Source: Butyrivibrio sp. (GTDB lineage: Bacteria > Bacillota > Clostridia > Lachnospirales > Lachnospiraceae). Taken from it: a stretch of 38,664 bases of DNA. The position numbers and the translations under genes are program-made. The DNA is taken from contig NZ_JAGAYD010000211.1 in NCBI RefSeq assembly GCF_017940685.1, forward strand, positions 1-38,664, in the 5' to 3' direction. The notes beneath the pieces were generated by a model, which worked only from the letters and a program-made list of their open reading frames with translations, was not told where the DNA came from and made no database searches. The number at the start of each line of letters is the position of its first letter. Position 1 is the first letter of the stretch. Positions 4,169 through 30,557 of this stretch are shown one piece after another.

Positions 4169-4971
4169 TATTCTCCTCCGCCGTCTCCAGAGCCATTCTC
4201 TGCTTCATATGCTGATCTGTCAGCAGGTGACAGGAATGACTTGAGCTTCTCTTCAGTAACACGCGGGTTCTCACCTGCCTGAATAGAAAGCAGACCTTCA
4301 ATAACTATACTCTTACTCATATACTCAGCATTGCTTCTGGCTTTAAGTTTGTTCTCAGCAGGGTAACAGAACCAGTTAGCCAGAACTGAACCATAGAATG
4401 TTGTAATGAGGGCAACCGCCATGGATGGTCCGATAGATGATGGATCAGACATGTTCTGAAGCATAAGAACCAGTCCAAGAAGAGTTCCGATCATACCCCA
4501 TGAAGGGCCCATACCTGCAACATCTGCAAAGAATGTGTAGTTTTCTTTATGACGTTCAGCCATGGCATCAATTTCAGCCTCCAAGATACTCTTTACAAGT
4601 TCTGGCTCAGTACCATCAACTATCAGCATTACTCCTTTTTTCATGAAAGGATCTTCAAGGCCGCTTGCAGCTTCTTCCAATGCAAGAAGTCCTTCTTTTC
4701 TGGCTGTGTTGGACAGATCAATGATGCTCTTGATCACAGACTTGGTATCATCAGATGGCATCTTGAAGATCAGTGTGTATGACTTAAGGCCGCTCATAAA
4801 ACTCTGCATGCTTCTAGATCCCAAAACCGCCATGAAGGCACCACCAAAGGTAATCATCATTGACGGAGCATCCACGAAGTATTTAACGCCTCCAATACCG
4901 GCACTAAACACAATACTGAGGATCATAAAGACGAAACACAGTCCTACTCCAAGTAATGAAGCAATATCCAC
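4168..4971 (-). CDS. motA: MotA, flagellar stator proton-channel protein
   Basis: This 267-residue protein has four predicted membrane helices (about 2-22, 30-50, 150-172 and 180-205) and a cytoplasmic loop between helices 2 and 3. Conserved MotA stretches are ADVAGMGPSWGMIGTLLGL and GPSMAVALITTFYGSVLANW, which include the channel-lining prolines. It pairs with MotB to conduct ions and push on FliG. Translation starts at GTG 4971, seven bases after a GGGGG-containing ribosome binding site. It is the first gene after the flgE terminator, so it probably begins its own transcription unit from the 406-bp leader upstream. Confidence 0.95.
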   Translation of the reverse strand: MDIASLLGVGLCFVFMILSIVFSAGIGGVKYFVDAPSMMITFGGAFMAVLGSRSMQSFMSGLKSYTLIFKMPSDDTKSVIKSIIDLSNTARKEGLLALEEAASGLEDPFMKKGVMLIVDGTEPELVKSILEAEIDAMAERHKENYTFFADVAGMGPSWGMIGTLLGLVLMLQNMSDPSSIGPSMAVALITTFYGSVLANWFCYPAENKLKARSNAEYMSKSIVIEGLLSIQAGENPRVTEEKLKSFLSPADRSAYEAENGSGDGGGE

Positions 4972-5050
4972 AACATTTCCCCCTTTTATTATTTGAAAAT
5001 TTCAAAATTTCTAATTTTTTCAGGTGTTTTTGAAATTAAATTTCTAGATA

Positions 5051-5071
5051 CCTTAATTTTAACACTTTTGC
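5051..5071 (-). repeat. Direct repeat copy 2 in motA leader, possible extended -10
   Basis: Read on the minus strand this copy is GCAAAAGTGTTAAAATTAAGG. It closely matches the copy at 5242-5261, about 190 bp upstream. Each copy contains TGTTAAAAT, which fits an extended -10 element (TGnTAnnnT), but neither has a good -35. It could be a duplicated promoter core or a regulator binding site. Confidence 0.45.
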
Positions 5072-5135
5072 ACGCCAAAAGCCGCTAAAACTGTTCACAT
5101 TTTAGACATAATTGCAGCATAATTTCATTTTGGGG

Positions 5136-5150
5136 ATTTCAATTTGAAAT
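5136..5150. promoter_or_regulatory. 15-bp AT-rich palindrome in motA leader
   Basis: ATTTCAA-T-TTGAAAT is a perfect dyad around one central base. A second dyad with related words, TTTGAAA-A-TTTCAAA, lies at 4992-5006, just before the motA ribosome binding site. Neither is a good CodY box. They may be operator half-sites or simply AT-rich sequence. Confidence 0.3.
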
Positions 5151-5193
5151 TTAATTGAAGATATCCATATTCCCCCACCAACTCATCCTTGAC

Positions 5194-5237
5194 ATACCAC
5201 AACATATAAAAAGGCATAATACTAGATATTGTGGTAT
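5194..5237. promoter_or_regulatory. 9-bp inverted repeat in motA leader
   Basis: ATACCACAA (5194-5202) and TTGTGGTAT (5229-5237) are perfect inverted copies, 35 bp apart start to start, between the two direct-repeat copies. There is no T-run, so it is not a terminator. It may be a regulator binding site or a leader RNA stem. Confidence 0.4.
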
Positions 5238-5241
5238 CGAA

Positions 5242-5261
5242 CTTATTTTAACACTTTTTGC
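5242..5261 (-). repeat. Direct repeat copy 1 in motA leader, possible extended -10
   Basis: Minus-strand sequence GCAAAAAGTGTTAAAATAAG, matching the copy at 5051-5071 apart from single-base slips in the A and T runs. TTCGATAC immediately downstream, with CAAA 15 bases before it, also faintly resembles a SigD promoter, but only 8 of 12 positions fit. Confidence 0.45.
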
Positions 5262-5306
5262 TGTGGAATACAGTATTAATTGAATAAATTTTTTATGTAT
5301 TATTTT

Positions 5307-5340
5307 AAAAAAATTCCCAGGACACAGGTCCTGGGAATTT
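5307..5340 (-). terminator. Rho-independent terminator after flgE
   Basis: On the minus strand there is a perfect 13-bp stem (AAATTCCCAGGAC pairing with GTCCTGGGAATTT) with a CTGT loop and a following T-run, 38 bases after the flgE stop. It is a strong intrinsic terminator and separates the hook unit from the motA-fliP unit. Confidence 0.93.
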
Positions 5341-5377
5341 GATCTGATGGATTTGCCTTTACTGATCTTTCTAATGA

Positions 5378-8300
5378 TTATCTCTTAAGGTTGGTGAGTT
5401 CCTCAAGAAGTGTATCTGATACTGTAATGATACGGCTATTAGCCTGGAAACCACGCTGTGTTGTGATCATCTCTGTGAACTCTCTTGAAAGGTCTACATT
5501 TGACATCTCAAGTACTCCAGTGTTCATGTAGCCGCCATCTGTTGTAATATCCTGAACAGTTGCTTCTCCAGAGTTAAGAGTTGATGAGTAGAGGTTGTCA
5601 CCTTCCTTTGAAAGACCAGATGCGTTAGCGAACTGAGCTGATGCAATCTGTCCAAGGAGCTTAGTCTGTCCATTTGAATATGTTGCGTAGATCCTACCGT
5701 CAGTTGAGATATTTACGCCATTCATCTCACCTACTGCTCTACCTGTGTTAAGGCTCTTCTTGTCACCCTTAACAGCCTTAACTGTTGAAGATCCGCTGGT
5801 GTTGTAGTTTGTAACTGATGAGAAGTCAAATGTCATGTGTCCAGCTACCATCTCTGCAGGGTCATTGTCACCCTTCTGGTAACCAAATGCTTCCATTCCG
5901 TAAAGCTCACTCTGATCAAAGATCATGTTTACGAGGCCTTGTCCCTCTGAGTTGTCATTAGCTGAAACAAGGGAACCGTTTGCTGCGTCGAACTTAAGCA
6001 TGATTGTGTGGCTGCCTGTTGAAAGTTCGATAGACTTAAGGTCTTCACCAATCTTGTATGTTCCGTCTCCGCCGTACGCTCTTGCTTCATCATCGCTAAC
6101 ACCGAAAATCTTCTGAAGGATGCCCTTATTAGCTCCACTTGCTGTTGAAAGAATATCTGAGATATTTCCTTCTGTCGGGAAGTCCTTAGCAATCTCAGTT
6201 GGGTTAACTGTCTTGTATGTTACGTTGCCTGTAGTTGAATCAACCTTTGCCTCATAATCAGGGTTGATGTTGTTAGTATCAGTCTGAACATGAGTTACAA
6301 TCATTCTGCTACCAACCAGCTGAACCTTAAACTCGCTGTCATCCTTAGTTGGATAATCGCCCTTAAGGCTCTCATAAGTTGTTCCATCTGCATAAATCTG
6401 TGTAAGAACGCTTTCACTAAGCTGTTCCTTAAGCTGCTCAAGAGTATAAACTCCATCATTACCGCCTGTAAGAACATAACCTTCCTTCAAGGAAGAATTC
6501 TTATTTCTAAATACAGATGTTGGTACTCCATACTCATAATTCGTGAAATTAGCTGTCTTAGTATCAGTTACGTGAGTAAATGTCTCGATATCAGCAGTCT
6601 TCTCAACTGTGCCAGTATAGGCAACAGTTGCCGTGAATCCTTCGGTTCCTGTAATATTTCTTACTTCATAAGTAATAGTACCACTAGTAACTGAAGTTCC
6701 TTCACCAAGGTTCAGTTTAGCAAGAAGAGCAGCTCTATCAGAGTCTGTCATGTCTGTTGCTATATTGATGGTCTGCTGCTTTGAAGCAAGATAATTAGCT
6801 AAAGTTTCCCCGGTGTTACAATCTACACTAGTCTCCTCATCGGTAAATCCATTTCCAGAAAACTTGATTGTATATACTTTATTTGTCTCTGAAGCACTTT
6901 CCAATTCATACTCAAACGTGAAATTTGAAAAATACGCATCAAGTCTAGCAGAAAGATCTGCTGAAGCATTTGGAAGGCTGCTTCCTACTACAGTTGTTGT
7001 CGATGTTCCAGCAGTAGTTAAAACACCAAGTAAATCCTGATAAAGAGAACCAGTAGTAGAATCAACTGCTATGTTTTCTGTATAATTGCCACTAGTAATT
7101 GTAATAGAACTGTCAGTATTTAATGTAAGATTAAAAGTATCGCCAAGGGAAGGCATCTGTATTGCTGACTTTAAATCTGTTAATGCACCAGCAGGAAATC
7201 CTGTTTCTGTAGGCGAGAATGTTCCCTTAGCATTTCCCTTAATAAGAGCATATAAAGCATTGTCAGAGTCGCTTATCTGAATAGACTTTGTTCCGCTGCC
7301 TGCATCAAGATACTTACCGCTGATCTTAAGTTCTCCAGCAGCATTGTATGAATAAGTTGTATCTCCATATACAGTTCCTGCTGGGCTAGTTATAGTTCCT
7401 GCTGTTATCTTTCCAAGAAGAGAACTGATTGTATCAGAAGCATAAGTCGTTGATGAAGCCTTGAAATAAGTATCATACTTAGTTCCAAGACCAGCTGTAG
7501 GTGTGGATGCAGTTTCTGAAGGGCCCTCGTTAGCAGTTATAGTAAGATCCTTAGAATTCTCATCATAGCTATAATTGTACTTGTCTGCATCTAAAGTAGA
7601 AACATCAAGTCCATAAATATTAAGAAGCATGTCAGAATTCAAGCCGCTAAGCTTACCAGTTATTGGATATGCTGGATTATCTGAGTTCGAAGGCATAGCA
7701 TAACCAAAATGAGTGGTTGGGTTATAGAAATAAGGAATATCATTTGTTGTAGACACATTTGTATATGTCTTGGATGAATCAGTTGTGATCTTTGCATCCT
7801 CAGAATTGTAAGTGATTGTCAGAGCATCCTGAGAAATAGTATAAGATGTGATATCGCCATATTTCTCTTTATATGTCGTTTCCTCAAGAGGATATACTTC
7901 ATCAAGGAATCCGTCTATCTTAAGAAGGTTATCAAGAGTAGTATCTGTGCTCTTAATAGTGTAAGTGTCATATACAGGAGAATTTGCTTCACGCCAGATT
8001 GTTGTCTTTCCTTCTACTGGCTCATCAATGTAGTAGCCATCTTCGATCTTGGATGTAACAGTCTCAGTCTTTCCGAATGTTACATGATCAAGTCTGTTTG
8101 TCGTTGTTCCATCAGGAAGTGTGATCTCCTGGTTGATTGAATTACCATCAGAATCAAGGATATCTGTCAGCTGAAGTGAGAAAAGATGGTCAGTTCCTGT
8201 ATCCTTAAGTGTAAATTTACCTGTGTAGAGATAACCCTTGTTGTCATAGAACTCGAGAGTGATTGTCTTACCATCATCAGATGTAACGTTGGTATCGTGG

Positions 8301-8860
8301 TCGTCGATATTTCCAGAATAGAGAGCCTGAGTTGTTGATGCTGGTGAATATGTAGCATTGTCAGCGCTCATGATCTGAAGAGATGTGATATCGCCGTTCT
8401 TATCAACCTTGATCTCACCAGTCTTCTTATCTTCCTTAGCTGCCCAGCCCTGTACGAAGTATCCGTTTGACTGCATAGCAAGGTTACCAGCGCCATCAAC
8501 GTAGAAAGAGCCGTCTCTTGTGTAGAGGTTTTCCTTACCGTTGTTTACGATAAAGAAAGAGCTACCTGTTATCATGATATCGAATGGGTTATTTGTGGTC
8601 TGAGTAGCACCCTGTGACTCAATGGCTGTAGAAATAGCACCAGACTTAGCACCAAGACCGATCTGACGAGCGTTTACACCACCCTTTGTCTCTGATGCGC
8701 CAGAAGCTGTCTGAGTTGTCTGATACATAAGATCTGAAAATGTGATTGACTGGGATTTGTAAGATGTTGTGTTAACGTTGGCAATGTTGTTACCAAGAAC
8801 GTCCATCTTGGTCTGATGTGTACGAAGTCCTGCAACACCAGAATAAAGTGATCTCATCAT
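5378..8860 (-). CDS. flgE: FlgE, flagellar hook protein with very large central insertion
   Basis: This is a 1160-residue hook protein; typical FlgE proteins are about 400-450 residues. The N-terminus (MMRSLYSGVAGLRTHQTKMD, then LGNNIANVNT) is the rod/hook family motif. FlgE-type regions follow to about residue 260, including FFIVNNGKENLYTRDGSF. The C-terminal roughly 230 residues are also canonical, with NLYSSTLNSGEA, GVLEMSNVDLSREFTEMI and RGFQANSRIITVSDTLLEEL. Residues about 260-930 are a Thr/Ser/Asp/Gly-rich insertion that I do not recognise, presumably exposed on the hook surface (D2/D3-like). The reading frame is intact. GGAGG lies ten bases upstream of ATG 8860. It is the last gene of the fliK-flgE unit. 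Confidence 0.95.
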   Translation of the reverse strand: MMRSLYSGVAGLRTHQTKMDVLGNNIANVNTTSYKSQSITFSDLMYQTTQTASGASETKGGVNARQIGLGAKSGAISTAIESQGATQTTNNPFDIMITGSSFFIVNNGKENLYTRDGSFYVDGAGNLAMQSNGYFVQGWAAKEDKKTGEIKVDKNGDITSLQIMSADNATYSPASTTQALYSGNIDDHDTNVTSDDGKTITLEFYDNKGYLYTGKFTLKDTGTDHLFSLQLTDILDSDGNSINQEITLPDGTTTNRLDHVTFGKTETVTSKIEDGYYIDEPVEGKTTIWREANSPVYDTYTIKSTDTTLDNLLKIDGFLDEVYPLEETTYKEKYGDITSYTISQDALTITYNSEDAKITTDSSKTYTNVSTTNDIPYFYNPTTHFGYAMPSNSDNPAYPITGKLSGLNSDMLLNIYGLDVSTLDADKYNYSYDENSKDLTITANEGPSETASTPTAGLGTKYDTYFKASSTTYASDTISSLLGKITAGTITSPAGTVYGDTTYSYNAAGELKISGKYLDAGSGTKSIQISDSDNALYALIKGNAKGTFSPTETGFPAGALTDLKSAIQMPSLGDTFNLTLNTDSSITITSGNYTENIAVDSTTGSLYQDLLGVLTTAGTSTTTVVGSSLPNASADLSARLDAYFSNFTFEYELESASETNKVYTIKFSGNGFTDEETSVDCNTGETLANYLASKQQTINIATDMTDSDRAALLAKLNLGEGTSVTSGTITYEVRNITGTEGFTATVAYTGTVEKTADIETFTHVTDTKTANFTNYEYGVPTSVFRNKNSSLKEGYVLTGGNDGVYTLEQLKEQLSESVLTQIYADGTTYESLKGDYPTKDDSEFKVQLVGSRMIVTHVQTDTNNINPDYEAKVDSTTGNVTYKTVNPTEIAKDFPTEGNISDILSTASGANKGILQKIFGVSDDEARAYGGDGTYKIGEDLKSIELSTGSHTIMLKFDAANGSLVSANDNSEGQGLVNMIFDQSELYGMEAFGYQKGDNDPAEMVAGHMTFDFSSVTNYNTSGSSTVKAVKGDKKSLNTGRAVGEMNGVNISTDGRIYATYSNGQTKLLGQIASAQFANASGLSKEGDNLYSSTLNSGEATVQDITTDGGYMNTGVLEMSNVDLSREFTEMITTQRGFQANSRIITVSDTLLEELTNLKR

Positions 8861-8925
8861 AAGGCAAAGTCCTCCATCTTTTTAATATGAAAATAAAACA
8901 TAAATATTCACCAGATATCTATGGA

Positions 8926-9039
8926 TTATTTCCGGATTTCGGACGAAGCTATTTGCGACTGATCCGGCAGTCTGTCCGGATCAAAAGATTTCCTGACGGG
9001 AGGCTCTTCTGGCCTTGTATCCCGCTTCGGTCCAATCAT
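8926..9039 (-). CDS. Possible 37-residue small protein between the TIGR02530 gene and flgE
   Basis: A 37-codon ORF starts at ATG 9039-9037, overlapping the upstream TGA as ATGA, the classic arrangement for translational coupling. The product begins MIGPKRDTRPEEPPVRKSFD and is basic, Pro/Arg-rich and hydrophilic, with no membrane helix. GGAG lies about ten bases upstream of the ATG. A 7-bp hairpin (8961-8982) falls inside it. I recognise no family. It could be a genuine small flagellar-operon protein or a chance ORF. Confidence 0.35.
   Translation of the reverse strand: MIGPKRDTRPEEPPVRKSFDPDRLPDQSQIASSEIRK
8961..8982. repeat. Short perfect hairpin inside the small ORF upstream of flgE
   Basis: GATCCGG (8961-8967) and CCGGATC (8976-8982) are exact inverted copies with an 8-base loop. 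No T-run follows, so it is not a typical terminator. It might act in RNA stability or processing ahead of the abundant flgE message. Confidence 0.4.
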
Positions 9040-9461
9040 GCAATAACTGCTCCGTCTATGTTAGTAAATACATTGTTCTTGTTTTCTGTCTGATCCATTG
9101 CTGTTACTACTGTGCTGCTTGGCACATTAACGATAAATGCCAGCTGGTCAACCAGTATCAGTGAATCCTTGATACCCTTTTCTCCTGCCTCGATCTTACC
9201 GTGATTTAGTCTTTCCATCTGCTCGCCTGTAAGCTCGATATTTCTCATGCTAAGTCTGTTAAGGGCATGCTTAGAAAACTTAACAGTATCTTCACTGTTA
9301 TTAATATCGGATGCAACCTTAACTTTATTTAGTACCTGGGCAAAAGAATTTTCTCCTGCAGGCAAAGAATTTTTATCTTTGCCTGCTTTAGGAGTATTAG
9401 GATTTAAATATTGATCCTGGACCTGGCCAATGGACATGAACCTTTGATCATCCATTATCAT
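9036..9461 (-). CDS. Flagellar operon protein, TIGR02530 family
   Basis: This 141-residue protein lies between flgD and flgE. It matches my recollection of the TIGR02530 'flagellar operon protein' family: the central stretch VKFSKHALNRLSMRNIELTGEQ, followed by a Gly/Lys segment and the hydrophobic SLILVDQLAFIVNVPSSTVVTAMD. Its biochemical role is unknown, and its constant place by the hook genes suggests a part in hook assembly. GGAGG lies eight bases upstream of ATG 9461. It has no signal peptide or membrane helix. The function is not established from sequence. Confidence 0.82.
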   Translation of the reverse strand: MIMDDQRFMSIGQVQDQYLNPNTPKAGKDKNSLPAGENSFAQVLNKVKVASDINNSEDTVKFSKHALNRLSMRNIELTGEQMERLNHGKIEAGEKGIKDSLILVDQLAFIVNVPSSTVVTAMDQTENKNNVFTNIDGAVIA

Positions 9462-9490
9462 TTATTTGTCCTCCATTTGCAGACTGATGT

Positions 9491-10186
9491 TTAGACTTCA
9501 TCAGCCTTCTTAAAGGTTCTGTGCGTATCTTCTCTTATGTCGTCAATTCTGTTTACGTACTGAAGAAGTGATGTGACATAGTTCTTGTTCATGAGATTCT
9601 TTGCTTTCTTATCCATTATGTCATTGTAATAAGAGTACATATTGTCGATTGTCTCGCCATGCTCTTCTTCAGTTATCATGTCAAGATTTGGAAGCTTATC
9701 AATGGCCTTCTGGAAATCTTCAACAGCTTCAAGTGCATCAACATAATCTGTTGCGAGAACCTGAGATACATTATCAATGTCATAAGCTGTTCCATTGATG
9801 TTTAAGTATGCTTTATTACCACTGTAAGTGACATAATCAACAACACCCTGAATCTCTGAAGTTGTACCATTTTCAGCATTTGTCTGAGTGATGACAACTG
9901 TTTTGCCAACCATTTCAGATGCTCTCGAAAGAGACATTGCGTTGGCCATGTTTGAAAGCTGCTCAACCTGAGTAAATGTTGCATACTGAGAAATATACTC
10001 AGTATTAGATGTTGGCTCCATTGGATCCTGATACTTCATCTGAGCAACCAGGATCTGCATGAAAGCATCCTTATCATATCCATTTGGAGTAGTCTTTGAT
10101 GCTGCTTTTTGATCTTCTGTCTTTATACCTGAATTAACTACTTCACCATTTTTTATGATTGCACTTACTGAACTTGTATCTGCCAT
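9491..10186 (-). CDS. flgD: FlgD, flagellar hook cap / hook assembly protein
   Basis: This 231-residue protein carries the conserved FlgD N-terminal signature (residues about 39-78): DKDAFMQILVAQMKYQDPM, then STNTEYISQ-like residues and TQVEQL. A short beta region (about 88-150) with EMVGKTVVI follows. The C-terminus is helical rather than the Fn3-like extension of enterobacterial FlgD, as in short Gram-positive versions. FlgD caps the growing hook and is needed for FlgE polymerisation. A GGGGAG ribosome binding site lies seven bases before the ATG. It sits between fliK and the TIGR02530 gene. Confidence 0.93.
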   Translation of the reverse strand: MADTSSVSAIIKNGEVVNSGIKTEDQKAASKTTPNGYDKDAFMQILVAQMKYQDPMEPTSNTEYISQYATFTQVEQLSNMANAMSLSRASEMVGKTVVITQTNAENGTTSEIQGVVDYVTYSGNKAYLNINGTAYDIDNVSQVLATDYVDALEAVEDFQKAIDKLPNLDMITEEEHGETIDNMYSYYNDIMDKKAKNLMNKNYVTSLLQYVNRIDDIREDTHRTFKKADEV

Positions 10187-25303: not shown

Positions 25304-28165
25304 TTATTTCTTGAGCCATGCAGTCTCTTTAGGAGTCTTTTTTACGAAAGGTCTTGCAAGTGCCTGCTTTGCACCATTTGGAAGGATGTACTTAAGCTTG
25401 TCCTCCGCCTTTCTCATGGTTGAGCAGTCTGGATTATCCCTTGTAAGCTTGATAGCATCAAATTCACATCTTGTTGTGCAAAGTCCGCAGCCCACGCACT
25501 TATTAGGGTCAACAATTGATGCACCACAGGACAGACATCTTGAAGTTTCCTTCTTAACCTGTTCCTCTGTAAATACAAGCTTGTTATCTCTAAATGAAAG
25601 CTTGCCATCAGCGCTTGCCTTTACACCTGCTGTCTGTCTTCCAACGTGGTCATAATCCTTAACAGAAATATCATCCTTATCAAGTTCGATAAAGAAGTTA
25701 GGGTCACGCCCAATTGTAAGTGAAGAATGAGGCTGAACAAATCTGTGGATAGACTCAGCACCTTCTCTTCCACAAGCAATGGCATCAATGGCAAATCTAG
25801 GTCCATAGAACATGTCGCCACCAACAAAGATATCCGGAACAGTAGTCTGGAATGTCACTTTATCTGCTGCTGGAGCTGGTCCTCTAAACTCAACGTTCTC
25901 GTCTTTTAAGAGATCTCCCCATACAGTTGCCTGTCCAACAGAAAGGATCACATTTTCACAGGCAATCTCCATAGTTTCATTCTCATCGTACTTAGGATCA
26001 AAGCGTCCCTCAGCATTCTTAACCTGAGTGCACTTCTTAAATACGATTCCCTTTACTTTTCCATTCTCTGTAAGGATCTCTTTTGGTCCCCAGCCGCCTT
26101 TAAGCTCAATGCCTTCAGACTCGGCAATTTCGATTTCCTCAGGAAGTGCTGGCATAATGTCTCTTGTCTCAAGGGAAACCTGTGTAACCTTGGATGATCC
26201 ACATCTAATTGCTGTGCGGCTAACATCGATAGCAACGTTACCGCCACCAATTACAACTGTATCACCAGTAAGCTTGTAGCTTTCGTCGTCAATAACCTCA
26301 TGGAGAAGGTCAACACCCTTAAGAACTCCCTTAGCATCCTCACCAGGAACGTTTACTCCTCTTCCGCCCTGACATCCGATGGCGATATAGAAAGCCTTGT
26401 AGCCTTCTTCTCTAAGCTGCTTTAAGGTGATATCTTTTCCAACCTCTACTCCAAGGCGGATATCAACACCAAGTTCTCTAAGTACATCAACTTCGGCTTC
26501 TACAACATTCTTTTCCATTACGAATGAAGGAATACCATATGTGACCATTCCACCTGGCTTCTTGTTCTTATCAAAGAGTGTAGGCTTGTAGCCCTTAAGT
26601 GCAAGATAGTAAGCACAGGAAATACCTGCAGGACCTGCACCGATAATAGCTACCTTCTCATCAAAGCCGGCTCCGATCTTAGGAATGACTTTCTTGGGAA
26701 TGTAGCGGGTATCTGATTCAAGATCGCGCATTGCAACAAACTTTTTAACTTCATCGATTGCAATAGCCTGATCGATGGTGCCTCTTGTGCAGGCATCCTC
26801 GCAGCGTCTGTTACATACATGTCCGCATACAGCCGGAAGTGGATTGTACTTCTTGATAAGAGCAAGAGCTTCCTCATATCTTCCCTGAGCTGCCATCTTA
26901 AGATATCCCTGAACAGGAATATGAGCAGGACATGCTGTCTTACATGGAGCTGTACCAGTCTTGTGTGTATTGATCCTGTTGATGTCGCGGTAGTCCTCAG
27001 TCCACATCTCTGTAGACCATTTCTTTTCTGTAGGAAGAGGCATCTTAGGATAGGTAACTTCGCTTCCATCCTTTTTGCAAAGCTTCTGTCCAAGAGTTGC
27101 TGCACCAGCAGGGCAAACCTCTACGCAGCGTCCACATGCAACGCAGTTTTCCTTGTCAACATGAGCAACATAAGCTGAACGTGACATGTTTGGTGTATTG
27201 AAAAGCTGTGAGGTACGAAGCGCATAGCACACATTTACATTACAGTTGCAAATAGCGAAAATCTTGTGCTCGCCATCAATATTAGTGATCTGATGAACGA
27301 AACCGTTGTCCTCAGCCTGCTTAAATATTTCAAGGGCTTCCTCTTTGGTGATATAGCGGCCATCCTTCTGAGTTTCAACTACGTAGTCAGCCATATCACC
27401 GATAGCGATGCACCAGCCTTCAGGATCATCAGCGCAGCCCTGCTCGTAGGTCTTTCTGCTTCTTCTGCAGGAGCATGGAGATGCTGCGTATTTTCCCTCA
27501 TAGTAGTCAAGCCAGTAAGAAATCTTTTCAAGGCCGATGGCTGTATTCTCCATCTCAATAGCCTTTTCAACAGGGATTACATGCATACCAACGCCTGCAC
27601 CACCCATAGGAACCATATGTGTAAGTCCCTCAAGAGGAATGCGGCTCATTCTCTCAAAGAAAGGTCCTACTTCAGGATGCTCTTCAATAACTCTGCCGTT
27701 CATGTTGCCAAACTCAGCAGAGCCTGGAACATACATAGGAAGAACATACTGCTTAACATGCTTTTCATTTTCGTAGTTCCACTCAATGATTCCGTGATAT
27801 GACATCTCATCAAGGTGCTTTTGCAGCTCCTCTTTTGAGTATTCAGGACAAAGAGCAGCAACCTCTTCGAATGTCTTTGGCTTTCTCTTTTCCATCTTAA
27901 GAGCAATCTCGCACTGCTCATCAGTTACAAGATTGTAAATGCCCCAGTACTCAGGGCTTTCTTTTGTGATCTTTTCAAGACCGAGCTTTATTTCTTTCCT
28001 GTCAGTAATAGCCTTGGCAAGTCTTGCCAGGGGCTCTCTGAAAGGAGCATTCATATCTACCCACTCTGGAATGATGCCAGCTCTTGGGTCAATTCTGTTA
28101 CGGTTTGGATCCAGCGAATATGGAGTGTTTAGATCCTTCATATCCATTGTATTCATATCAACCAT
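25304..28165 (-). CDS. Multidomain [4Fe-4S]/FAD/NAD(P) oxidoreductase, GltD-like core
   Basis: This 953-residue cytoplasmic electron-transfer protein has several parts. Residues about 50-150 include a winged-helix-like segment. Residues 231-313 hold an unusual Cys cluster (C231, C233, C245, C252, C306, C308, C313), then a ferredoxin motif at 341-351 (CVACGRCVEVC). Next is a GltD-type N-terminal Fe-S domain (C408, C412, C447, C451, C455, C459), an FAD site GAGPAG (509-514), an NAD(P) site GGGNVA (640-645), and a C-terminal Cys-rich ferredoxin domain (C877, C880, C890, C893, C896, C900). The core is like glutamate synthase small subunits and ferredoxin:NAD(P) reductases; electron donor and acceptor are unknown. 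ATG 28165 has AGGAG five bases upstream. It is the last gene of the hypB-hypA cassette. Confidence 0.85.
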   Translation of the reverse strand: MVDMNTMDMKDLNTPYSLDPNRNRIDPRAGIIPEWVDMNAPFREPLARLAKAITDRKEIKLGLEKITKESPEYWGIYNLVTDEQCEIALKMEKRKPKTFEEVAALCPEYSKEELQKHLDEMSYHGIIEWNYENEKHVKQYVLPMYVPGSAEFGNMNGRVIEEHPEVGPFFERMSRIPLEGLTHMVPMGGAGVGMHVIPVEKAIEMENTAIGLEKISYWLDYYEGKYAASPCSCRRSRKTYEQGCADDPEGWCIAIGDMADYVVETQKDGRYITKEEALEIFKQAEDNGFVHQITNIDGEHKIFAICNCNVNVCYALRTSQLFNTPNMSRSAYVAHVDKENCVACGRCVEVCPAGAATLGQKLCKKDGSEVTYPKMPLPTEKKWSTEMWTEDYRDINRINTHKTGTAPCKTACPAHIPVQGYLKMAAQGRYEEALALIKKYNPLPAVCGHVCNRRCEDACTRGTIDQAIAIDEVKKFVAMRDLESDTRYIPKKVIPKIGAGFDEKVAIIGAGPAGISCAYYLALKGYKPTLFDKNKKPGGMVTYGIPSFVMEKNVVEAEVDVLRELGVDIRLGVEVGKDITLKQLREEGYKAFYIAIGCQGGRGVNVPGEDAKGVLKGVDLLHEVIDDESYKLTGDTVVIGGGNVAIDVSRTAIRCGSSKVTQVSLETRDIMPALPEEIEIAESEGIELKGGWGPKEILTENGKVKGIVFKKCTQVKNAEGRFDPKYDENETMEIACENVILSVGQATVWGDLLKDENVEFRGPAPAADKVTFQTTVPDIFVGGDMFYGPRFAIDAIACGREGAESIHRFVQPHSSLTIGRDPNFFIELDKDDISVKDYDHVGRQTAGVKASADGKLSFRDNKLVFTEEQVKKETSRCLSCGASIVDPNKCVGCGLCTTRCEFDAIKLTRDNPDCSTMRKAEDKLKYILPNGAKQALARPFVKKTPKETAWLKK

Positions 28166-28201
28166 TCTTTCTCCTACCTTTCTTCCGCTCAAAACTAAAG
28201 T

Positions 28202-28546
28202 TTACGTTGCCGCAATTTCTTTTATCATAAACTCGTTGCCCTTTAAGAGATATGTATGTTCACTGCCACAGTTGGGACAGATCTTGCCATGAGCAACGGT
28301 TTCATATTCACTTTTACAGTCCTCACAAAAGGTTACAGCAGGAAGGGTCTCTATAATAAGCTCTGCCCCATCCATAAGCTCTGTCCTGGCAGCAGCCCAC
28401 TTCCAAGCGTCGTCCAAAAGAGAAGGTACCACACCTGAAACTTCTCCAAGCTGCAGGGTTACTGAATGTATCTTTTCAAGATTATTCTCTTTTCCCACCT
28501 CTGTAAGGTCATCAATTATTCGAAAAACAACACCAAGTTCATGCAT
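28202..28546 (-). CDS. hypA: HypA, nickel metallochaperone
   Basis: This 114-residue protein starts MHELGVVFRI, with the Ni-binding N-terminal His2-Glu3, and has a zinc site C74-xx-C77 and C90-xx-C93 (FCEDCK...ICPNCG). HypA delivers nickel with HypB to [NiFe] hydrogenases, and in some bacteria to urease. The ribosome binding site is weak. It follows hypB after a 134-bp gap holding a long hairpin and precedes the oxidoreductase by 36 bases. No hydrogenase is in the window. Confidence 0.93.
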   Translation of the reverse strand: MHELGVVFRIIDDLTEVGKENNLEKIHSVTLQLGEVSGVVPSLLDDAWKWAAARTELMDGAELIIETLPAVTFCEDCKSEYETVAHGKICPNCGSEHTYLLKGNEFMIKEIAAT

Positions 28547-28599
28547 TTGTCTTTACCTTGTCTGCCTTAAATAAATTTCATTTGATCCATATACAAGTA

Positions 28600-28654
28600 A
28601 AAGCCATGCGAAACTAAGGTTAAGATAAACTTCCCCTGTTTATCGCATGGCTTT
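28600..28654. repeat. Long hairpin between hypB and hypA
   Basis: AAAGCCATGCGA (28600-28611) pairs with TCGCATGGCTTT (28643-28654) in a 12-bp stem. Inside lies a second inverted repeat, GATAAAC with GTTTATC. On the minus strand the T-tract is short (TTTTACTT), so it could be a weak terminator, an RNA-processing site or a control element that sets the hypB to hypA ratio. Confidence 0.55.
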
Positions 28655-28680
28655 CTCTCATCTCAATGCCAGATCTATGT

Positions 28681-29349
28681 TTACTTTATAGCTTCCTCTA
28701 TCTGATCAGAAAGCCACGCAGCCCATTCATCAATTCCTTCACCTGTCTTAGCACAGATAGGAATGATGATAGCCTTTGGATTGCGCATATGTATATACTC
28801 TTTGCACTTTTCAAGATCAAAGTCAAAGTAGGGAGCAACATCCATCTTGTTAATAAGTACCACGTCGCAAATGGAGAACATAAGTGGGTACTTAAGTGGT
28901 TTGTCATGACCTTCAGGAACTGAAAGGATCATGGCATTTTTAGTGCTTCCTGTATCAAACTCAGCAGGGCAAACAAGATTACCCACGTTTTCAAGGATCG
29001 CAAAATCCACATCTGAAACATCAAGTTCTTTAATACCCTGTCTTGTCATGTCAGCGTCAAGGTGACACATTCCACCAGTGTGGAGCTGGATTGATTTAAC
29101 ACCAAGCTCAGCGATGGCCTTTGCATCAACATCTGAGTCGATATCCGCTTCCATAACGCCGATCCTGTACTTGTCCTTAAGAGTCTCAATGGTCCTCTTA
29201 AGTGTAGTTGTTTTACCAGATCCAGGGCTGGACATAAGGTTTAAAAGAAAAGTCTTAGACTCCTTAAGCTCTCCTCTGAGTTTTTCTGCATCCTTGTCGT
29301 TACTCTCAAAGATGCTCCTCTTGACTTCAATTACTCGAACATTATCCAT
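28681..29349 (-). CDS. hypB: HypB, nickel-inserting GTPase
   Basis: This 222-residue GTPase has Walker A SSPGSGKTT (40-48), a metal site around HTGGMCHLDADM (C95, H96), ENVGNLVCPAEFD (C127) and the guanine-specificity motif NKMD (167-170). It lacks the His-rich region and the N-terminal CxxCGC high-affinity nickel site found in some HypB proteins, so it probably works only as the GTP-gated nickel transfer partner of HypA. Its ATG abuts the stop of the upstream DUF5692-like gene, so the two are tightly coupled. Confidence 0.95.
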   Translation of the reverse strand: MDNVRVIEVKRSIFESNDKDAEKLRGELKESKTFLLNLMSSPGSGKTTTLKRTIETLKDKYRIGVMEADIDSDVDAKAIAELGVKSIQLHTGGMCHLDADMTRQGIKELDVSDVDFAILENVGNLVCPAEFDTGSTKNAMILSVPEGHDKPLKYPLMFSICDVVLINKMDVAPYFDFDLEKCKEYIHMRNPKAIIIPICAKTGEGIDEWAAWLSDQIEEAIK

Positions 29350-30467
29350 TATTCTGCACGCTCCATTGCAAGCTGGAAGTCCTTGGTATCACCAAATACT
29401 TCGTTTGCATAAGGATTCTTACCAAGCTTGATTGATCTCTTAATGATTTCAGTCATACAGATCACGTTGATGGCAATTGCAAGAATTGCAACAACACCCT
29501 GAGCTGTAGGATTAGCGGTGATACCCATAGAGGAGATTATATCACCAGCCTGTGCTGTCTTACCAGCCCCTGAATTGTAAAGCTCGATAGCCTTTGCGTA
29601 AAGATCCATTGTTGTGATGCCAGCCTCAGTTGCTCCGCCGTAAACTGAAGGAAGTGCTGCTGCAAAGCGTGAAGAAAGCTGGAATGCAGGAACAACCTGT
29701 GCCCACATGCACCAGATTGCAAGTGTGTTAGCACGGTTCTGGATCCATGCGCCCTTGTTCCAGAATGCGTTAGCAAATGTAGGAGCAAGAAGAAGTGCTA
29801 CACCACAGTACCATGAATGTGTAGGAAGGTTGAGGTATGTGTATTCAAAGTTCCAAACATCGTATGCAAAGATGAACCAGATTGTCATATCAGGCCAAAG
29901 CATATCTGCATGGTTCTTGTCCTTTGATGTGTAAAGATGTACGCATCCTGTCATGCAGAAGATATTGATAAGTCCTGCAAGAGCGTTAACAACGTTCCAC
30001 CATCCACCATAGATGAATACACCCTCGTTTGATGCCCACCAAGCACCTGAAAGGTTGCCTGTGATTGAGAATGCTGCAAGAGCAGACTCCATATCAGAAA
30101 CGTTAGCAATCATGATGTTAGCTGCAACGATGAACCATGGGAACCATTTGAACCATTTTTCCTTGCCAATGCCCCATTTGTACTTGATCATCATAAAGCC
30201 TACACAACCGATATCAGCAGCGTAAAGCTTGAAGTAATGGAACCAGCCGTCCATGAATGCTACAGTAGGATTTGACTTGCCACCAAACATACCTACATGT
30301 GCAAGGATGAAATAAACTGTAAGGATTGTAGGAATAGCTACAAATACGATCATTCCACCCAATTTGGTCCTACGACCAATCTCGTTCATGAGAATAAGTC
30401 CCACAAACACTAATATCCAACCAATCAGCTGCATAGATGCATGGTCGCTGTAAAGTTGAAATAACAT
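29349..30467 (-). CDS. Trp-rich polytopic membrane protein, DUF5692-like
   Basis: This 372-residue integral membrane protein has about nine hydrophobic helices (for example about 12-30, 38-60, 113-130, 165-187, 200-216, 225-242 and 335-356). It has 18 Trp residues (nearly 5%), clustered at helix ends in WFKWFPWF, AWWASNEG and GGWWN. I believe it belongs to DUF5692; no function is established. ATG 30467 follows AAAGGAGG with a six-base spacer, so the longer ORF from 30491 is rejected. It is the first gene of the hypB-hypA-oxidoreductase cassette and shares its promoter, which suggests a link to nickel or redox metabolism. A transporter or membrane electron-transfer partner are both possible. 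Confidence 0.7.
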   Translation of the reverse strand: MLFQLYSDHASMQLIGWILVFVGLILMNEIGRRTKLGGMIVFVAIPTILTVYFILAHVGMFGGKSNPTVAFMDGWFHYFKLYAADIGCVGFMMIKYKWGIGKEKWFKWFPWFIVAANIMIANVSDMESALAAFSITGNLSGAWWASNEGVFIYGGWWNVVNALAGLINIFCMTGCVHLYTSKDKNHADMLWPDMTIWFIFAYDVWNFEYTYLNLPTHSWYCGVALLLAPTFANAFWNKGAWIQNRANTLAIWCMWAQVVPAFQLSSRFAAALPSVYGGATEAGITTMDLYAKAIELYNSGAGKTAQAGDIISSMGITANPTAQGVVAILAIAINVICMTEIIKRSIKLGKNPYANEVFGDTKDFQLAMERAE

Positions 30468-30505
30468 AAAAAACCTCCTTTGACATTGCAAATTTTATAG
30501 TTACA

Positions 30506-30544
30506 TGCAATATGTCACATTTTTAACTATTATAGCATATTGCA
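30506..30544. promoter_or_regulatory. 9-bp dyad flanking the -10 of the DUF5692-hypB-hypA promoter
   Basis: TGCAATATG (30506-30514) and CATATTGCA (30536-30544) are perfect inverted copies spaced 30 bp start to start, on either side of the -10 at 30529-30534. A third related word, CATTGCA, lies at 30484-30490 and can pair with TGCAATATG in the leader RNA. The layout suggests repressor binding; a metal- or redox-responsive regulator would fit the genes, but this is inference. Confidence 0.55.
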
Positions 30545-30557
30545 CAACGCCAATCAA
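30529..30557 (-). promoter_or_regulatory. sigmaA promoter for DUF5692-hypB-hypA-oxidoreductase
   Basis: On the minus strand: TTGATT (30557-30552), 17-base spacer, TATAAT (30534-30529) preceded by TGC, a consensus extended -10. It lies about 60 bases upstream of the first gene. This is the best sigmaA match in the window. Confidence 0.8.

Follow-up and report, generated by a model that had tools for sequence, protein, structure and literature searches.

A candidate nickel-matured reductase of conjugated fatty acids in Butyrivibrio: an IsrA-family oxidoreductase encoded with HypA, HypB and a DUF5692 membrane protein

We analyzed a 38,664-nt stretch of DNA from Butyrivibrio sp. (GCF_017940685.1, contig NZ_JAGAYD010000211.1, forward strand, positions 1 to 38,664; hereafter the window), whose minus strand carries a cassette that the open reading frame (ORF) list and profile searches resolve, in order, into a DUF5692 membrane protein, HypB, HypA and a large flavo-iron-sulfur oxidoreductase. 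We read this cassette as encoding a reductase that is matured with nickel, is associated with the membrane and would act on conjugated fatty acids in biohydrogenation, a reading to which we give a probability of about 0.5 and in which we infer the nickel, the substrate and the role of DUF5692. The cassette is not a new kind of system; it represents a described family (IsrA with HypA, HypB and DUF5692) in rumen-type Butyrivibrio, and neither the neighborhood nor the nickel idea is new, because both are in print (PMC10134865, Kronen et al. 2023). What we add is the linkage to a fatty acid isomerase, the finding that across genomes DUF5692 depends on IsrA, and the picture of a shared HypB.

The oxidoreductase (25304..28165, minus strand, 953 residues) probably belongs to the IsrA family, judging by its size, domains, cysteines and gene context. 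It contains Fer4_20, Pyr_redox_2 and Fer4 domains, with a domain for flavin adenine dinucleotide (FAD) and NAD(P) and a C-terminal 4Fe-4S region. Residues 393–883 match several PDB entries at E values up to 1e-20, among them a molybdopterin oxidoreductase, the formate dehydrogenase-O major subunit, NfnA, NfnI and the glutamate synthase small chain, and no best PDB stretch at this threshold covers the first 390 residues. Six cysteines (C240, C242, C261, C315, C317 and C322, numbered from the TTG start of the ORF) are present in 49/49 IsrA-family sequences, as are R243, E294, H300, N316 and R326; the set comprises ORFs of at least 800 amino acids whose alignments exceed 700 columns and start before residue 160, with L070 and L080 (our labels for loci begin with L, for genomes with G and for contigs with C) being the same locus. 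The protein thus shares with the isr operon and with IsrA clade 9 a length of about 900–950 amino acids, a specific N-terminal domain joined to a FAD/NAD(P)/4Fe-4S core, a six-cysteine site with two CxC motifs in the published pattern, and hypA and hypB nearby. Unlike the isr operon, the cassette has a single HypA, includes DUF5692 and holds no extra ferredoxin gene.

IsrA is described as an isoprene-induced iron-sulfur flavoenzyme, with a log fold change of 10.70, and its six-cysteine site is termed "cluster V" (PMC10134865). The same source reports that the genome of Acetobacterium wieringae ISORED-2 encodes HypA and HypB and no [NiFe] hydrogenase genes, proposes IsrA as their nickel client, and finds, for 988 IsrA homologues, HypA nearby at a fraction of 0.73, HypB at 0.56 and DUF5692 at 0.4. 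An earlier note on this stretch had described the cassette as lacking a nickel enzyme, which presumes that nickel plays no part in the oxidoreductase; in the literature the IsrA family has been put forward as possibly nickel-dependent, and the "missing nickel enzyme" is probably the oxidoreductase itself. The other suggestion made there, an uncharacterized nickel-linked redox system, fits and comes near the printed IsrA proposal, in which nickel is likewise proposed (PMC10134865).

The earlier note had also suggested checking whether DUF5692 co-occurs with hypA, hypB and this oxidoreductase. We ran this check on 295 genomes of the order with five queries, DUF5692, IsrA, HypB, HypA and HypD. 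IsrA was counted at 100 bits or more, a threshold inside the gap from 117.4 to 34.5 bits that dropped the 7 of 50 genomes with weaker matches only (G025, G050, G073, G107, G171, G202 and G274), and HypA from 50 bits upward (63 genomes; 67 exceeded the model cut-off, and four at 29–40 bits were omitted). HypD and HypB were counted over cut-off only, which retained 56 of 59 and 61 of 167 genomes, respectively. DUF5692 was present in 32 genomes and IsrA in 43, and 31 of the 32 DUF5692 genomes carried IsrA, the exception being G202, which is 86% complete. DUF5692 occurred in 0/32 genomes that have HypD and lack IsrA. By genus, DUF5692 was found in 15/129 and IsrA, at any strength, in 24/129.

Physical proximity is looser than genomic co-occurrence. 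In 16/32 genomes, DUF5692 and isrA are a few kb apart at most, and in the other 15 that have IsrA, DUF5692 is located elsewhere. Had DUF5692 homologues lain mostly outside hyp contexts, the association proposed in the earlier note would have failed; this is the case only in the narrow sense of distance (16/32 not close to isrA), and 15 of these 16 distant cases still have IsrA, HypA and HypB elsewhere in the genome. An isrA gene fell within the fetched flank at 27 of 80 DUF5692 loci, many of these flanks ending at contig ends. From those 80 we took 18 loci chosen for variety and searched their whole genomes; all 18 carried IsrA, including 9 without isrA in the flank, and at least three (G005, G062 and G218) were already in the first sample, so the two sets are not independent. 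Among the 18 were B. proteoclasticus P18, B. hungatei DSM 14810, Pseudobutyrivibrio xylanivorans MZ8, Lachnospira multipara LB2003 and two Treponema metagenome-assembled genomes (MAGs). We also observed that, in G262 (contig C9, about 149696–152500), DUF5692, HypA and HypB stand in a row and hypA is about 0.8 kb from hypB; in the related genome G093 that gap is filled by isrA, which G262 has elsewhere.

The pointer toward fatty acids comes from the neighbors of isrA in other genomes. At several divergent isrA loci, the adjacent gene encodes a flavoprotein of about 420 amino acids whose best solved relative, over nearly its full length, is PDB entry 2b9w (E values of 7.8e-63, 3.1e-21 and 4.1e-22 in L049, L068 and L067, respectively), the next-best matches being 1e-7, 1.3e-5 and 2.2e-8 in the same order and limited to shorter N-terminal stretches. 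The entry is named "putative aminooxidase", and we take it to be the polyunsaturated fatty acid isomerase (PAI) of Propionibacterium acnes. PAI is described as a FAD-containing linoleic acid isomerase of 425 amino acids whose sequence is amine-oxidase-like and for which there are six crystal structures (PMC2885616), and six is also the number of PDB entries matched in one of our searches with an isomerase homologue.

At a threshold of E up to 1e-10, isomerase homologues were found in 11 of the 295 genomes, from 8 genera. All 11 carry IsrA, which is present in 43/295 overall, and 8 of them carry DUF5692. In 9 of the 11, no more than 4.4 kb separates a copy from hypB, isrA or DUF5692, and in the remaining two (G181 and G238) the isomerase and isrA are on different contigs. 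In G111 (L169), the isomerase (4434–5843), hypB (5847–6506), hypA (6507–6893) and isrA (6906–9815) are predicted ORFs spaced 0 to 12 bp apart, which is the order of the window with the isomerase replacing DUF5692; 295 amino acids of this isomerase match 2b9w at E 9.7e-87. In G197 (L172), a run of genes encodes an isomerase, a CrtI-like flavoprotein (its best NCBIfam match, under cut-off, is of the carotenoid-isomerase/CrtI-like type), a ferredoxin-reductase-like protein, one unknown protein and a divergent DUF5692 (59.5 bits).

Because PAI makes conjugated linoleic acid (CLA) and conjugated dienes are the proposed substrates of IsrA, the presence of both genes in one operon suggests a pathway that isomerizes and then reduces. 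The P. acnes enzyme (PDB 2b9w; PMC2885616), with homologues in or near the isrA operons of the cassette's relatives, differs from the cassette in making CLA rather than reducing it, and no homologue was found in the window or its genome. In the mechanism that we envisage, HypB and HypA would load nickel, probably at the invariant six-cysteine N-terminal site, as others have proposed for IsrA. NAD(P)H would supply electrons that travel through FAD and the 4Fe-4S clusters to the cysteine site, a route suggested by the domains and by the model of Kronen et al., and the site would hydrogenate a conjugated, otherwise unactivated C=C bond. In the group that includes this cassette, the substrate would most likely be a conjugated fatty acid formed from dietary linoleic or linolenic acid, making this the reductive step of biohydrogenation; it is the linkage of isrA to a linoleate-isomerase homologue in relatives that leads us to a fatty acid. 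DUF5692 would anchor IsrA, or retain the hydrophobic molecule on which it acts, at the membrane.

Rumen bacteria convert dietary polyunsaturated fats to trans and saturated fats, shaping the fat of milk and meat, and the cassette supplies named candidate genes, open to deletion and expression, for a part of this conversion that is genetically ill defined. Butyrivibrios are presented as the chief biohydrogenating bacteria of the rumen and the best characterized biohydrogenators of linoleic to vaccenic acid, and their oxidoreductase as membrane-associated with an NADH to rumenate ratio of 1:1; the same account states that the reductase could not be traced in genomes, having no entry in KEGG, COG or Pfam although a sequence had been reported (PMC4478896). 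CLA reductase is said to make up 0.5% of B. fibrisolvens protein, with growth awaiting conversion to vaccenate (PMC2836310). Compared by description, the system that we propose resembles the CLA reductase of B. fibrisolvens in bacterial group, membrane association and conjugated diene substrate (PMC4478896, PMC2836310, PMC2654759). The isomerase-hypB-hypA-isrA operon is a ready expression target, and the cassette offers a reason for the presence of HypA and HypB without a hydrogenase. More broadly, and doubtfully at this stage, IsrA-family flavoenzymes that contain nickel, matured by a dedicated HypA and a shared HypB and partnered by a lipid-handling DUF5692 in the membrane, may be what hydrogenates polyunsaturated fatty acids under anaerobic conditions, both inside and outside the rumen. 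If true, nickel enzymes would gain a new class, defined by the saturation of conjugated double bonds that are not activated, and the occurrence of HypA/HypB pairs in hydrogenase-free genomes would be accounted for.

Several observations weigh against our main reading. The Fisher values for co-occurrence range from 6e-8 to 2e-49 for genomes that are related, so independence is overstated. DUF5692 is missing from 12 of the 43 IsrA genomes and from three of the isomerase genomes (G111, G181 and G238), and a fold search with it gave no match above the helical-bundle background. No isomerase homologue was found in the window's own genome or in the other nine genomes of the genus that were searched, so the fatty acid link for the window rests on relatives, and the isomerase of these ten genomes must be another protein; a B. 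fibrisolvens genome paper found a linoleate isomerase gene neither in that strain nor in other Butyrivibrio species. The IsrA proteins of those relatives are about 44–55% identical to that of the window over whole proteins, and 33–50% in the N-terminal part. Coverage beyond the order was thin: in a sample of 201 genomes of the class, some shared with the first sample, two had the isomerase, one as a 115-amino-acid fragment near hypB-hypA-isrA and the other with no isrA or hypB in the 12 kb read. The CLA reductase of B. fibrisolvens was reportedly purified by Hughes in 1982, and its gene was reportedly sequenced by Fukuda in 2007; if that published gene, CLA-R, is unrelated, the substrate claim for Butyrivibrio is weakened. 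Finally, isoprene is reportedly not reduced by Acetobacterium strains whose homologues are 47–49% identical to IsrA, so family members are not alike in substrate (PMC10134865).

It is possible, if on the unlikely side, that the cassette encodes the same type of enzyme acting on another C=C substrate, such as a terpenoid, an aromatic acid or another plant-derived compound, or serving as a general electron sink. Isoprene is the compound with which the sole physiologically studied member of the IsrA family was discovered, and the finding of an isomerase homologue in 0/10 genomes of the genus agrees with such a view. Five of the seven IsrA-bearing genomes of the genus moreover have two IsrA paralogues that sit on different contigs and whose N-terminal parts are about 50% alike, and at least one of the two may use another substrate. 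Against this stand the fatty acid isomerase homologue, linked in 9 of the 11 genomes that carry it, and the oleate hydratase that adjoins isrA homologues in two Acetobacterium (PMC10134865). The main text of that paper mentions oleate once and the words linoleic, isomerase and Butyrivibrio not at all. In the open-licence literature that we searched, DUF5692 is named only there, and, by title and abstract start, the IsrA family is tied to fatty acids nowhere.

A different question is whether the two chaperones belong to this enzyme at all. HypB (28681..29349, minus strand, 222 amino acids) is a HypB-type GTPase that overlaps DUF5692 by 1 base and scores 245.8 bits against TIGR00073 (cut-off 121.2). 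Its N-terminus reads MDNVRVIEVKRSIF and has no His-rich or Cys-rich stretch, bearing out the absence of an N-terminal nickel-storage motif that had been noted earlier, and its G domain still keeps the Cys-His...Cys. HypA (28202..28546, minus strand, 114 amino acids), a HypA-type nickel/zinc chaperone with an MHE start and two CxxC motifs, scores 107.4 bits against PF01155 (cut-off 28.9) and 68.6 bits against TIGR00100, and it is divergent because the latter falls under the curated cut-off of 88.1. By eye, the window ORFs of at least 120 amino acids include no hydrogenase, urease or other hyp gene, as previously remarked, a survey that a HypC-sized protein would escape. At the cassette no hydrogenase large subunit stands beside the hyp genes as in a [NiFe]-hydrogenase operon, and no complete hydrogenase operon was seen adjoining it in the window. 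The expectation that Butyrivibrio-type bacteria have Ech holds for the window's own genome (95% complete), which carries an Ech-type [NiFe] hydrogenase large subunit and HypD, both over cut-off, on another contig. The large subunit is the single PF00374 match (contig C213), and HypF-, HypE- and further Ech-like genes stand beside it and HypD, by eye, on a 14-kb contig without hypA or hypB.

HypA and HypB could therefore be imagined to serve Ech alone, their adjacency to the oxidoreductase and DUF5692 being incidental. Ech and HypD are present in the genome, and the window's HypB is its sole HypB over cut-off. In G134 and G150, two genomes of the genus, a HypB 84–87% identical to that of the window sits at the same place, upstream of topA-codY-flgB as in G005, with no HypA adjoining it and without the other three cassette genes there. 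Nevertheless, we consider an Ech-only role improbable, and a hydrogenase-only role for the pair was rejected on the co-occurrence of HypB, HypD and IsrA. HypB stood alongside HypD or IsrA in 60 of 61 genomes, and 18 of the 19 genomes with IsrA and no HypD carried both HypA and HypB, the exception (G181) being 75% complete. Across the 239 genomes without HypD, IsrA and HypB were both present in 18, IsrA only in 1, HypB only in 1 and neither in 219; these 18 genomes, with IsrA, HypA and HypB but no HypD, and the placing of the Ech genes on another contig set the cassette apart from the HypA-F and Ech system, with which it has HypA and HypB family members in common. Within the genus, a second HypA of at least 50 bits tracks IsrA (two HypA in 7/7 genomes with IsrA, one in 3/3 without), and the second HypA of the window's own genome adjoins a LarC-type nickel insertion protein (PF01969, 442 bits; L038 8544–10202, contig C262). 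The set also stays together across several gene orders. An adjoining complete hydrogenase operon in other strains, which would have undone the earlier interpretation, did not appear: EchE, HypD, HypE and HypF from the window's own genome gave no match in the 80 DUF5692 loci or in the compared neighborhoods of relatives.

The distribution within the genus suggests how the chaperones are shared. B. hungatei DSM 14810 (G005, 100% complete) has one HypB, in the cassette, plus HypD. G134, G150 and G277 lack DUF5692 and IsrA, and all three have HypD and one HypA; G277 has two HypB, about 55% identical, at a different place, and in G134 and G150 the HypB is retained, and DUF5692, the adjacent HypA and IsrA are absent from around it as one block. 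As HypB is the only one over cut-off in the window's genome and is retained without the trio in two relatives, it is probably common to Ech and IsrA; most simply, HypB would work for both enzymes and the cassette HypA for IsrA. The earlier idea that the chaperones may serve an enzyme elsewhere is accordingly right in part: it probably applies to HypB and less to HypA, which is gained or lost together with DUF5692 and IsrA.

DUF5692 (29349..30467, minus strand, 372 amino acids, 18 of them Trp) matches PF18948 at E 1.7e-126 and 421.9 bits (cut-off 27) over profile positions 3–304 of 304. Its start is an ATG with a Shine-Dalgarno-like site, by eye, that is conserved in the alignment of relatives; the ORF itself extends to a TTG at 30491. 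The structure model is mostly helical (pLDDT 83.8, pTM 0.83). In 25 sequences, the invariant columns comprise N, E, R, K, D, Q, W, F, Y, G, P, A, I, L and M, with no invariant Cys or His (the best Cys or His columns reach 20/25), and a heme or Cys/His metal route through the protein is consequently unlikely. The proposal that the membrane protein transports metal or passes electrons draws on its helical, membrane-type character and its tie to a chaperone-linked redox enzyme. We regard a nickel importer or membrane electron carrier as very improbable, given the lack of invariant Cys or His and the absence of DUF5692 from all 32 genomes with HypD and no IsrA; the fold search, without a standout match, points neither way. 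We tentatively see DUF5692 instead as an accessory dependent on IsrA that may bring the enzyme, or the lipid on which it acts, to the membrane. In a separate observation, DUF5692 proteins at L140, L142 and L151, from Treponema MAGs, are 57–61% identical to that of the window, with isrA in both genomes tested; the presence of DUF5692 in these spirochete MAGs would reflect gene transfer or mis-binning.

The gene set named in the earlier note stands as described, and the range given for it does not: the oxidoreductase, at 28165..25304, lies outside 28165..30557. A DNA topoisomerase I-like frame follows 3' of the oxidoreductase, by eye. Transcription of the cassette from one promoter, as first claimed, is no more than possible. 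The promoter-like site upstream of DUF5692 (30529..30557, minus strand; TTGATT-17-TATAAT, TG-extended) is weak, the scan returned 15 such sites against 10.6 (standard deviation 3.8) in shuffles, with no clear excess, and a hairpin with a U-run separates hypB from hypA. This attenuator- or terminator-like element in the hypB-hypA spacer (28603..28651, minus strand; fold z −3.74, with compensatory changes) could lower hypA-isrA expression relative to DUF5692-hypB.

The 9-bp stem of the hairpin is kept in 8 of 12 hypB-hypA spacers, which form the alignment; L070, L077, L079 and L097, with other hairpins, were omitted. In the eight loci, 98.6% of stem cells pair, versus 26–44% in slid versions. 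Seven cells changed on both sides, a number reached in 0/500 shuffles; three pairs show two-sided change (reached in 28/500), and there are five further pair types (reached in 323/500). The stem was not seen 3' of hypB in G134 and G150. No Rfam family reaches its gathering score in the window, and at E up to 5 the region around the hairpin matched six microRNA families only, all far under gathering score. A GATAAAC..GTTTATC..CCTT pattern inside the hairpin is also kept, by eye, in most of the eight loci and perhaps indicates a pseudoknot.

Some further features of isrA neighborhoods were recorded. In G238, two isrA paralogues stand in tandem (L063 7558–13307). In L168 of G353, a 115-amino-acid frame (8458–8691) near hypB-hypA-isrA matches isomerase residues 343–420 and looks like a gene remnant. 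A trio recurs in L172 (5102–9356), L171 (4065–8322) and L168 (5721–8691), consisting of a PAI-like isomerase (the fragment in L168), a CrtI-like flavoprotein and a ferredoxin reductase with a 2Fe-2S domain; it is perhaps a second saturase system for fatty acids. GntR-FCD or TetR regulators, classes that can sense fatty acids, lie near isrA in L064, L065, L066 and L168. In L050 (1614–10521; G118, of the genus of Pseudobutyrivibrio xylanivorans MZ8), the region 5' of IsrA-HypA encodes a CooC/MinD-like ATPase, a BadF-type ATPase, two 2-hydroxyglutaryl-CoA dehydratase D-type proteins and a small CdhC match (PF03598, 36 bits), a neighborhood that is nickel- and double-cubane-flavored.

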